Origin: Owenia fusiformis | Lineage: Eukaryota; Annelida; Polychaeta; Sabellida; Oweniidae | Reading direction: 5' to 3' | Length of the DNA stretch: 64,000 nt | NCBI GenBank assembly: GCA_903813345.2 | Contig: CAIIXF020000001.1 | Span: forward strand, 51,229,885-51,293,884 | Shown here: positions 19,201 through 33,500 of the stretch, one piece after another | How positions within the stretch are numbered: position 1 is the first letter of the stretch | Layout of the letters: the number at the start of each line of letters is the position of its first letter | Translations under genes and position numbers: made by a program | Notes under the pieces: generated by a model | Told to the model about the DNA's origin: nothing | Databases searched by the model: none | What the model saw: only the letters and a program-made list of their open reading frames with translations

Positions 19201-19700
19201 TCCCTTATCTCAATTTTAGGGCTGTCATTTCGTTTGTACTCTGTATTTTCTAATCAGGTTCAGTATCAAGGGCTATCACTTCATTTAGTCAATCAAACTG
19301 CTAAATTTTTCAATTGACCAATCACAAATCCAGTAATTTGGCCCTCATGGCCCCTAAGCAACATGTCTCGACATATTTCATATGAGCATGGGCATTCAAT
19401 AGAAGGGTATGAAACTCTGTGTTAGATTATAACATGAGAACTTCAAAATGATTGGTGGCATGCTTTCTTTTTTTGGTAATATTTCGAAAAGAGATTTTGA
19501 TTAAAGTATATGTTATAGCATTATCTTGAAGAAAAAACAAGACAAGGCTTGAAATATGGGAAAAAAAGTGGGCCCAAATTGTTATACATATTCCCAGGGC
19601 CTAGGGAATGTAAGGTAGCTTTGAAGATATCAATACACCCATTTGTCACATCTCAAACTAGAATGATGGACTGTAATTGGTCAGATCATGTCACATAACC

Positions 19701-19975
19701 CAGGCCTGTCAACTGTCCCGCAATTTGCGTATTTGTCACGCATTTGCTGAAGAATTTGAAGTCACGCCAGTTATTTTTGCGTGACAGAAAATGTCACGCA
19801 AATACGCATTTTACCTGGTAATTGTCAAGCAAAAATATTTCTGTAGAAAAATTTCTAAAAAAGATCGTCTACACAGCAAAAATACGAACGCGGGAAAAAA
19901 ATGTACGCATTTCGTTCGGATTTTTCACGCGAATTACGTATATGTCACGCATTCCGTTCGAAATTTTTCGTACCT

Positions 19976-20008
<33 letters not shown>

Positions 20009-20212
20009 TTGACGGATGTTTGAAACGCGAGCGTAGCGATCGCGAAAAATTTGAGGTGTTCAAAATTTGGCAAGATGTAATAAAATTTAAACCAAGGTGT
20101 TCAAAATTTGGATCAAGGTGTCCAGATTTGGACCAAGGTGTCCACATTTTGAGGGGAGGTGTTCAACATTTCCAAGTCACTCATGTTAGGTGTTCCCAAG
20201 TTGACAGGCCTG
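19701..20212 (+). mobile_element. CAGGCCTGTCAACT transposon, best copy, 7-bp target duplication
   Basis: The 512-bp element begins CAGGCCTGTCAACT and ends AGTTGACAGGCCTG. CATAACC is duplicated at 19694-19700 and 20213-20219. The interior repeats TTGTCACGCATTTG-type blocks, has 31 consecutive C at 19977-20007, and ends with tandem 'AAGGTGTCCAAATTTGGA'-like 19-bp units. The overlapping 73- and 131-residue ORFs are open by chance; the same frame appears in the inverted copy at 51517-51965 only because the DNA is conserved. Seven- to eight-bp duplications would fit hAT- or P-like elements, but I do not assign it. Confidence 0.85.
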
Positions 20213-21042: not shown

Positions 21043-21047
21043 TGGAA

Positions 21048-23461
21048 ATGTTGATGCCAGGGACCTTCCTTGACGCCAGATGGGCAGAAACACAAGAGGG
21101 AAGAGAAGTTCTTGCAACACTGACAAATAAAACAACACAACAGAGAAAAACATTTGGTAATAATTGTTTTTTGTAAGGGTGCTATAGTAATGTCTAGATC
21201 ACTAGTATAAGGGGGCATAAGGTACCCAGGGCAAGAACAAAGGAAAGACGGTCCCATCCGATTCATCGCATGAATCCCATTTACACTGTAGTTCACTTAA
21301 ATTAATGATTGGTATCCAATGTCAAGCATGTTTTAAACCTAGAACACCTAAAAGTCTAGGTATGGGGTAGAATTCTGTAAATATAACTTTTGAATATGAC
21401 AAGGTCTCAGTTTTTCCGACTCATTTGTATATCTATTTTGCAGGACTTCTAGAACGTCCAAGTTTTCCTCCACAGGCAGCTCCTGACCTCTTCCAGTACA
21501 AGATATTTGTAGCAGGGAAATCAGGTGTTGGCAAGTCAAGTATGGTTGCAAATCTGACAGGGCATCCAGTGTCCCGATCCCATATAGAAACTGCTGGTGA
21601 GGAATTTTTTGATACATTGGTACTAATTTACTACTTGCAGTTATCTCTCTAGCAATGAAGCAAGGGGTGCTGCACCCATTTAAAATTTTGAAATTCTGCT
21701 TGCACCCACTTAAAAAATGATAAAAATCATTGGTCAAAATTGTGACAGTATATTGTACGGGTTGTACATGCATTTGTATTGTAGGTATCTGAGCCTACAC
21801 ATACCTACACTATATTATGTAGAAACTAGTTATATTGCAGGTATACAAGATTGTAATTCTTTGCAGGTATTCAGACCTACACAGTGTATTGGCCAGCAAA
21901 GCTTATAGAAATAGACAAAGTCATCATGTTTCAACTTCAGTTCTGGGATGCAGGAGAAAATGCAATCAAAAAGTTTGACCACATCTTACCTGTAAGTAAA
22001 AGGTCTATTTTATTACATTTTTATTTTTTTTTATTTATTTATTTAATTTTTTAAATTTTTTTATAACATTGTCAAACGGTGCTTTGGTTCTAATTCAAAG
22101 GCCTAGACTAAAACAAGGCCCATTTGGGTGTCATTGTCCCCAATTAGAATTAGACATTAACTCGTGTACTCTTAGATGTTTTCTTTTTCTTGCTGTCAGT
22201 ATCAAAATGTTATACTAAATACGGAAAGAATTGGTCTGGCAAGGAATATCATTTTAAGCCCTCAAAATATGGCATATATTATTCATTATGTAAGATACAG
22301 ATTACTAGCTGCCATACCCAATATTCATTTTTCAAGCTAAAACATGTAGGTCCCCAAAAAAGTAATAAAGTGTACAAGAGTTAAAAATAAGGTATTGGAA
22401 ACCTTGACACTGATGGACCTTCAACTGACTCTTTCCTCACCAGATGAAATACATGTAGAACCAGAGGCTGGATGTGTTAGACTCCACAGGTACTATCCAG
22501 ACCAAATCAAACTATGATACTGCACCAAGGTCACAGTATCATATCATACCTAATAAGAGTGGCTACACATGTGCAAGTGAAGTCCAGCTATGATCCATTG
22601 ATCCCACACAAGCTAATTCACAGTATTATGGGGTCTGGCTTTAAATAGCATCCATGGCCTTTTTACAGTAAAAAGTATAATGTTTTATGGTGTCTGTTTC
22701 AGGCATGTAAAGACCGCAATGATGCAGTTCTCTTGACATTCTCTTTCACAGACAAGTCCAGTTTTCAGGATCTCCCGCAGTTAATCAACAGGGTCACTGA
22801 TGGCCAGGAAAATGTTTGCAAGATAGCAGTTGGAACAAAGTATCCTTTAAATTATACACATTGCTGGTATTCATGAGGTGGGGCAAAATTGATGCATATT
22901 TAATTTTGGTTTGAGAATTATTCTAGGCAAAATAAAAATGCTTTTGTGCAGTTCTACTGCTAATGTTATTTGTCATTGTTGAATGTTTCTCAATGAGAAT
23001 TCATCTGTTTTATTCAGTCATCAGTGGTAAAAGGTGACATTTAAAAAGAATCATGTATAGTTTGAAATATGTACATTTGAACGTATGTATTTAAAGAAAT
23101 TAAAAAAATATCACAGAGATCAAAATTTCTAGAACTACTTTTCCAAATCTTTATCTTTTATATTCAGAAATTAATCTTAGGTTAAATCAGAGTGAAAAGC
23201 ATTTATAAAAAATCCTTAACTTGTGATATATTTGACCAATATGCTCAAGGAGAAATCTCACAACTGAATATCAGGGACTTTGAACAAAACTTTAAAATTC
23301 CCGTTCTAAGGACTCAAAACATTCCCCGCACAGAAAGCGGATATAATAACCTGAAAGAGGTGACACCTATATTGAACAGCATATGTGAACACTTATGGCA
23401 CAGAGACCAGATACTGGCTGGAAGGCTTGAACCAACTGATGCTAGGGCATCATATATATAA
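21048..23461 (+). CDS. CPLANE2: CPLANE2/RSG1, REM2- and Rab-like small GTPase
   Basis: Ciliogenesis and planar polarity effector; in vertebrates it works with the CPLANE complex at the basal body to recruit intraflagellar transport proteins (family knowledge). Exons: 21048-21156, 21444-21596, 21867-21991, 22703-22839, 23230-23461, giving 251 residues against about 258 in human. Motifs: N-terminal WAETQEGREVL and FGLLERP; P-loop GKSGVGKSS (61-69); IQTYTVYWPAKL (89-100); WDAGENAIKKFDH (114 on) in place of the usual DxxG; FSFTDKSSFQDLP; G4 TKFDQ (174-178); C-terminal ILNSICEHLWHRDQ. The ATG at 21048 directly follows an acceptor at 21042 and gives an N-terminus aligned with the human protein; ATG 21054 is an alternative. 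The last intron interrupts the G4 Lys codon and carries U12-type signals (see 22840-23229). Confidence 0.93.
22840..23229 (+). other. Candidate U12-type intron with GT-AT ends
   Basis: The intron starts GTATCCTTT, which fits the minor-spliceosome donor consensus RTATCCTT. TCCTTAAC at 23213-23220 fits the U12 branch site TTCCTTAAC. The only exon start that keeps the frame and the conserved KFDQ is 23230, so the intron would end GATAT, with terminal AT and a branch-to-acceptor distance of about 10-11 nt. AG at the end of the next possible acceptor (CTCAAG, 23250) and AC at 23236 both shift the frame into early stops. Confidence 0.8.
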
Positions 23462-30532: not shown

Positions 30533-33500
30533 TATCGCTTAAATGTACTTAAAACATTTTTAGATCAGTGTGGGTTAAGCGGATAAGATTGATATGTATA
30601 ATGAAGAACATTGCACTGATACAAAACAACAATTGGATTAAAAAGATGAAAACTTACTGTAGATCTTTACCATTTACATTCCTTTGTAATATTATATGCA
30701 AATAGGTAGAAGATCATGTAACAATTTTTATGTAATGCAAAAAGTCCAACACTTGGAATGTAACTTTGACAAGTGTGAGCAATTGAAAAAGATTTTCTGT
30801 TCAGTTTGACATTTATACTAGAATTAATACAAGTATGTAAGTGATTGAGAAGCATCAGCTTATGTAATTAAACGTTACAATGACATACAACTTACAAGCG
30901 CTTGTGAATTTTTCTGTAGCTACATACTTGGTATACAGAGCTTACAATAATGACTGGTTGGGCTCAGTTAGAACTGGTAGGAAATGGAATCACAGTTAAG
31001 TTTGCATTTATATCATTCAAAATTCCCTTTTGATTTGATTCTTTGAACATTTCTAAATTTTTCAAGTTGTTATTAAGTTATTCCTTAATGTTATTTTCCC
31101 TGACAAAGAACACATTTTTAGTGTAACCTCTGATAGAGGTGCAGCAAACACAGATAAAAGACGAGGGTAATTATTTTCAAAAATTCACATTTTTACAATA
31201 TATAAAAACTCTAGAACATCAGCACTTACTCATCTTATCTGATTAATTTTCAGTTTTATTTCCTTTCAAAAACCTTAACCTCAGGACAACCTAAAATTAC
31301 CACATCAAGCATTTATATATATATCCTACGTTTGAGCCCCACCAGCCTATATTACAAGCTCTACATACCAAGGGTGAACTATATATTGATAACAATTCCA
31401 TATTTATCAATTTGCTGTAATTGAGAACATCAGAGACATTTATTGACTAGTATTATATTATCCAATCCAAGTCAACAAATGAAGTGGCATTCACCAGTTA
31501 GCTGACTTGAAATGATTAAAATGATATGGCATTCTGCTCTGTAATGAAAAATAAAAAAGATTATCCAATAATCTCTAATAATCCAATAATCTTTTTAATA
31601 ATCTATGAGAGTCACGAGTGTCAGGTTTTGAAACAGCCCAGACTGAAAAACTACAAATCCCATTCCTCCAAAATTCTTCACTTCTTTTAATAACTCCAAA
31701 TTCAATTATCTGATTCAATAATGATGTCATTTTGACATTCTTTTATGATTTATTATTAAATTATAAACCAAAATTGGATTACAAGCATCAAAAAGCATGT
31801 CGATAATAATATCTGTGTTAACTCTAACAGTGATTATGTCACTCTAATTATGTCACTCTCATTATTTTTCCAGGTGAAAGATTTGAATCTCTGTAGCCAT
31901 TGCCATATAAATTGAAGTAATTTAGAAAATTACAAAGGATTGGTATCGATATGGCGATATATTGTTTTTCTCTTAAACCAATTATTGAAAACATTCTGTA
32001 AAAACATGGTCCTTTATGCAATGGTCAGTGATTGACAACAATTTAACTTTTTGGGGATTTTTAGTGCAATTGTTTTTTGTTCTTTTCTACCAATTCTTGA
32101 GAATGAAATAAAATATCTTTCCAAACCTTGTTTGAACAAATAGCATATACAACATGTTCTAAGACCTCTCAATATTATAGTTATACAAAGGAAAATTTGG
32201 TTGATTTAACAAAACGTATTCAAAAAATTAAAACAAAAAACAAAAATAGATAAAATTTAAAGTAAACCTTTTATACAATTACAATATTGAGAAACCTGAT
32301 GTGTTTTTTAAAACAATATAGAGAAAAGTATATATATGTTTTTTTCAAATTAAACTGTTACCATTCAAAAGATGATCAAGATTGACGATGTGTAAAATTT
32401 TCAAACTTTTTGATGACTGGTTAAAGAAAAACATGTGTTCAATTCAGTTTGCCATATGGAAACCAATCCTTTCTAAAAAATTCCTAACCAAACAAAGAGT
32501 AAACATACCATTGTTCAAAAAACTGCAAGTGCAGAGAGAGATGGATTAATAAAACAATTGCTTTTTTAGCTCCAACAAATCTGATATATATGTGATATCA
32601 TTTATTTGTATTATCATGGGCTTTCAACTAGCTAGTTGAAAGCCCATGGTATTATGAACTAAATAAATGATGCTGATTAGCAATAAAACGAACATATCTC
32701 CTCAAAACAAAAAATTCTTTGATAAAGGCTATGTGTAATATTTCATCTTTGTTATTCACTCATACCTGCCTACCTAAAGTGATAAGAAATATGGTAGGCC
32801 TTTTTGTTTGAAAAATACAGTTGTTCTATGGTTGATTTATTCCAAAATGGTGTTTTTGAAAGATTTTTGTAAAACTAGATATTCCAGTGAATATTTAAAT
32901 AGAAAATAGTAGGATATTTTTTAAATGATAACTTTTTCAAAAACAACTTGTTTCTTCCCAAAGTCTTGTCTTTTATTATTACAACACATAATAAGAGCCA
33001 AGACATCTTGAGTAGGATAAATGTACCTAACTGACACTGAATTATACTAATATAAATAATATAAGAAGTATAAAATAAGAGCTAACATTGTTAAGCTGAC
33101 ATCAGCAAAACAGCGTGTGTATAAGAATTTCAACGAAGTAATTATTCCAATGTCTTAATTATAAATATGCTAGTTGACACTGTAACAATCGAACACAGCA
33201 GTATTCTTAAACCACTAATAAAAAACAATCATTCATTATAATTCTAATGGATTGGGACATTATCCTATGATTGAAAGGTTGCAGATGGTCTAATTGTATT
33301 CACATCAAAGAATGAAAATATGGAGTCACATCAATTATTCTTATAAATAGTTTCTTGACACTTCAAAAGGATACCAACTACCTATAATCCTATAATATAT
33401 CATAGTCATAAAAGCACAAACTCATCCAATCAAAATATTTTAACTTAACTTAATGAATTCATTGACTTACTTATTGTTCTAACATCTAATCATAATTATT

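Follow-up and report, generated by a model that had tools for sequence, protein, structure and literature searches.

In silico analysis of the CPLANE2 gene of Owenia fusiformis, whose product is a GTPase involved in building cilia, revealed that its last intron, intron 4 (22840-23229, 390 nt, phase 2), is probably a U12-type intron with the non-canonical termini GT-AT. According to this reading, to which we assign a probability of about 0.8, the intron would be removed by the minor spliceosome, with exon nucleotide 22839 joined to 23230. The window, that is, the whole stretch of DNA analysed here, comprises 64,000 nt of contig CAIIXF020000001.1 (51,229,885-51,293,884) from a genome of 498 Mb. 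All coordinates refer to the window, and all features lie on its forward strand unless otherwise stated. A U12-type intron with a GT-AT boundary had been proposed in the original prediction, and it is supported here by the donor, the branch site, the distance from branch to intron end, the reading frame, protein homology and the snRNA genes of the same genome.

The coding exons of CPLANE2 span 21047-23461 and are five in number, encoding a protein of 251 residues. Coding exon 1 (21047-21156) contains the translation start and was placed by the genome match of residues 1-37. It is preceded by an acceptor-like TTTTTTCAG, and an upstream non-coding exon is therefore likely. Exon 2 (21444-21596), carrying the P-loop GKSGVGKS, exon 3 (21867-21991) and the last exon 5 (23230-23461), open through the stop codon TAA, were delimited by alignment to the PDB chain 7q3e_D together with genome matches. 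Exon 4 (22703-22839) ends in ...GGAACAAA. The identity of the gene, as originally predicted, was confirmed against PDB chains and Pfam: the best solved-structure match is 7q3e_D, “Ciliogenesis and planar polarity effector 2” (E 4.2e-69, 236 bits, residues 3-243); the second-ranking chain, a Rab-1A, reaches 48 bits. The Pfam families Ras (53.1 bits) and Roc (45.5 bits) also match the protein. All five reported genome matches of the protein fall inside the window. In the genome outside the stretches read as N, neither a second CPLANE2 copy nor, with a junction pattern allowing up to two mismatches, a spliced CPLANE2 retrocopy was found. The gene is intact and apparently single-copy. Upstream of it, a run of 31 C is present at 19977-20007, within a block at about 19700-20210 that looks repeat-like by eye.

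The donor of intron 4, GTATCCTTT (22840-22848), agrees exactly with the U12-type consensus (A/G)TATCCTTT. The branch site TCCTTAAC (23213-23220) is likewise an exact 8-mer of the branch consensus of U12-type introns (TCCTTAAC-like), with its second A at 23219. The terminal dinucleotide AT (23228-23229), read from the sequence and from the enumeration of joins described below, gives the intron GT-AT ends instead of the GT-AG or AT-AC of the canonical subtypes. Canonical termini are not a precondition for U12-type status. From the second A of the branch site to the last intron base there are 10 nt, which is slightly short, because the published optimum between branch and 3' splice site is 11-13 nt (given in a passage of PMC6717393). 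As exon 4 ends in AA, the intron interrupts the Lys codon of GTKFDQY after its second base (phase 2). The close minor-spliceosome matches, at the coordinates first given for them, the spacing of 10-11 nt before the deduced exon and the interrupted Lys codon of the G4 motif TKFD had all been predicted, and all were found as described, the spacing being 10 nt by our count.

In shuffled windows, the exact donor occurred on average 0.56 times and the exact branch motif 2.0 times per 64 kb, both strands counted. Assuming independence, an exact donor at one exon end combined with an exact branch motif in about 13 allowed positions is expected by chance at a level of the order of 1e-9. Since both motifs occur together at a single homology-defined exon border, a chance origin is very unlikely. 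Another exact GTATCCTTT lies at 33366-33374 on the reverse strand, in surroundings where no gene is visible by eye. The pyrimidine fraction at the acceptor of intron 4 is 0.53. Intron 2, which was taken as U2-type, has the same value, and introns 1 and 3 both have 0.71; the acceptor of intron 4 is not distinguished by its pyrimidine content.

The end of the intron was located by enumerating joins from GT, GC and AT donors at 22760-22900 to acceptors up to 23340, with a minimum intron length of about 40 nt. Over these donors, 1112 joins were in frame and open, 58 of them with canonical termini, and not one of the 58 keeps the motif G[TS]KFDQY. The motif was obtained from two joins, written here as last exon base/last intron base: 22839/23229 (GT-AT) and 22841/23231 (AT-AT). 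The TA-TA join 22840/23230 likewise yields TKFD. Among the motif-restoring joins, GT-AT is the sole one in register with the RTATCCTTT donor. It restores GTKFDQY, and the alignment with 7q3e_D is gapless across the junction (KIAVGTKFDQY in the product, KIVIGSKFDQY in 7q3e_D). The claim that TKFD is regained by this AT end only thus holds with respect to the canonical joins, but has to be relaxed for the AT-AT and TA-TA joins.

The nearby AG and AC dinucleotides had also been said to cause early stops. From the donor at 22839, this is true of AC 23236, AG 23249 and AG 23252, but not of AG 23190, 23199, 23274 and 23310 or AC 23220 and 23313, all of which keep the frame to the real stop codon (AG and AC were listed for 23100-23329). 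AC 23220 belongs to the branch site, and the four in-frame AG acceptors disrupt the G4 region. An AG resembling a U2-type acceptor, with a good pyrimidine tract (23150-23167), lies inside the intron at 23166-23167; its pyrimidine fraction of 0.82 is the highest among twelve acceptors scored. If used, it would give GTKN followed by a stop, and consequently a truncated protein.

Minor introns of the same genome served as controls, and their families were searched by means of the Pfam models LSM12 AD domain, DER1, E2F_TDP and Band_7. LSM12 and PHB2 were picked from a table in PMC2831892, and Derlin and E2F were added to them. Four complete minor introns (LSM12, the Derlins C12 and C3, and PHB2) have the donor GTATCCTTT and GT-AG ends; the donor identity is true by construction, because the controls were found via the donor. 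Their acceptors were placed in this small sample by frame and by homologous proteins (for Derlin C3 mostly by frame), with AG being sought. The distance from branch to end, counted alike in all cases, is 10 nt for LSM12, 11 nt for Derlin C12, 12 nt for Derlin C3 and PHB2, and 10 nt for CPLANE2. An acceptor half in E2F (C11) ends in AG at a distance of 9 nt; no convincing donor for it was found either within that locus or in the adjoining 7.9 kb. Ten further loci (L022, L024, L025, L027-L031, L033, L034), some with a donor-like 8-mer, showed no convincing donor or branch by eye and lie outside the count of four, while L011-L019, overlapping stretches of Derlin and LSM12, were covered by the donor scan alone. 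In both Derlins, an AG situated 3-4 nt downstream of the branch A is skipped, and joining to it in the same frame would lead to a stop; a distance rule therefore seems to be at work. The anatomy of CPLANE2 intron 4 is that of the controls, with the exception of its last base. Since all four controls and the E2F half end in AG, the AT is an exception among the few introns examined. The PHB2 minor intron (locus L032, reverse strand, 1932 onward) is GT-AG here and AT-AC in the fly, according to the PHB2 entry of PMC2831892; this is a comparison at the gene level, with no correspondence of position implied.

The machinery for such splicing appears to be encoded in the genome. Above the Rfam cut-offs, genes were found for U12 (two), U6atac (two), U4atac (one) and U11 (two), so that all four minor-specific snRNAs have genes in the genome that carries CPLANE2. 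Both U12 copies contain GTAAGGA, U6atac contains AAAGGA and U11 contains AAAAGGG, these being the parts of the respective RNAs that read branch and donor. One of the U12 genes (locus L001, 1501-1650) is located on the opposite strand; on visual inspection, the sequence around it resembles an intron of a gene for a zinc-finger transcription factor.

Other explanations of the AT end have to be weighed against these data. Nucleotide 23229 may be an assembly error or a minor allele, so that the usual end would be AG and the intron an ordinary GT-AG minor intron. A single T/G change at this position would make the end canonical, all four complete controls end in AG, and the reading of 23229 rests on one assembly; on the other hand, the 781-nt region from exon 4 to exon 5 has one match in the genome outside its N stretches, at 100% and in its own place, so that no differing second copy is present there, and minor introns with GT-AT ends are already known. 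This explanation is considered unlikely. A shift of the join by one or two nucleotides, to TA-TA (22840/23230) or AT-AT (22841/23231), would regain TKFD just as well, but both shifted introns would begin within the RTATCCTTT donor, in a register different from that of the four control introns, which makes such a shift extremely improbable.

It could also be supposed that 22839 is spliced to a nearby canonical AG, giving, either predominantly or as an alternative form, a CPLANE2 with an altered G4 region. The joins to AG 23190 (23189-23190), AG 23199 (23198-23199) and AG 23274 (23273-23274) indeed stay in frame to the stop. However, they change the G4 region by the addition of 13 and 10 residues and the loss of 15 (FDQY...), respectively, and the similarity to 7q3e_D falls from 236 bits for the GT-AT product to 217 bits for AG 23199 and 210 bits for AG 23274. 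Moreover, AG 23190 and 23199 are located 5' of the U12 branch site, the sequence upstream of AG 23199 is purine-rich (pyrimidine fraction 0.29), and GTATCC is a poor donor for U2-type splicing. Splicing to one of these AG acceptors is accordingly very doubtful.

The preferred GT-AT reading suggests the following order of events. U11 and U6atac would read the donor GTATCCTTT, and U12 would pair with the branch site TCCTTAAC. As the region in which the second step occurs is determined by the branch, cleavage would take place 10 nt downstream of the branch A, after AT, and the joining of 22839 to 23230 would restore TKFD. Actual use of the AT in splicing is thus suggested by signals, frame and homology. 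Ancestrally, intron 4 probably ended in AG, which differs from AT by a single T/G change, and the AT end may lower the efficiency of splicing. It is conceivable, though quite improbable, that AT has been fixed and conserved in the lineage as a deliberately weak acceptor that limits the amount of working CPLANE2, and hence ciliogenesis, with the in-frame AG joins providing a form that does not bind nucleotide.

GT-AT introns of the minor type have been described before. Work on U12 introns by mutation and by database survey, as related in PMC4176328, shows that a 5' G can be joined to either G or T at the 3' end, G being preferred; PMC8280824 places GT-AT among the G-type minor introns, and PMC8199999 counts GU-AU among the rare ends. 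The rarity of GT-AT had been rightly predicted, and the subtype is documented in these three sources. Intron 4 would therefore add one more rare case to a class of introns already described in the literature. In an annotation table for the fly in PMC4528330, the introns marked as U12 have AT-AC, GT-AG or GC-AG ends, and 14 GT-AT introns bear no U12 mark, each of the 14 having a similar alternative splice. By analogy, these fly introns would weigh against a minor-spliceosome reading of GT-AT. According to PMC4528330, unstranded GT-AT splices had mostly been assigned in the fly annotation to the other strand, as AT-AC (8 of 10 cases).

Among the literature matches listed, no title or abstract opening mentions a minor intron in CPLANE2/RSG1, which is weak evidence. 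A skipped-exon change of CPLANE2 upon TSSC4 loss is reported in PMC11652373, and PMC12346831 uses CPLANE2 as an example of isoforms; the respective passages do not refer to a minor intron. CPLANE2 is named in PMC13341116 as well. The text of PMC13216214, which concerns minor splicing and cilia, contains neither “CPLANE” nor “RSG1”.

If the GT-AT reading is correct, intron 4 would offer a clean example from nature of a G-type minor intron that ends non-canonically, lies in a conserved gene and has its junction fixed by protein homology. It would fit the view that the minor 3' splice site is set by the branch site more than by the last base. There is also a practical side, as gene finders limited to GT-AG, GC-AG and AT-AC introns would truncate or distort CPLANE2 within its GTPase motif.

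Compared with known systems, intron 4 shares with the published GT-AT U12-type subtype a G-type minor donor, a consensus branch site, a near-normal distance from branch to end and AT in place of AG. It differs from the published examples in lying in CPLANE2 and in being known here from genome sequence alone. In the canonical GT-AG minor introns of the same genome (LSM12, the two Derlins and PHB2), the donor GTATCCTTT is identical, the branch site is similar and the distance is 10-12 nt, whereas the end is AG. The last base is variable also in the CENATAC-dependent AT-AN minor introns described in PMC8280824; their donor, however, starts with A, while that of intron 4 starts with G.
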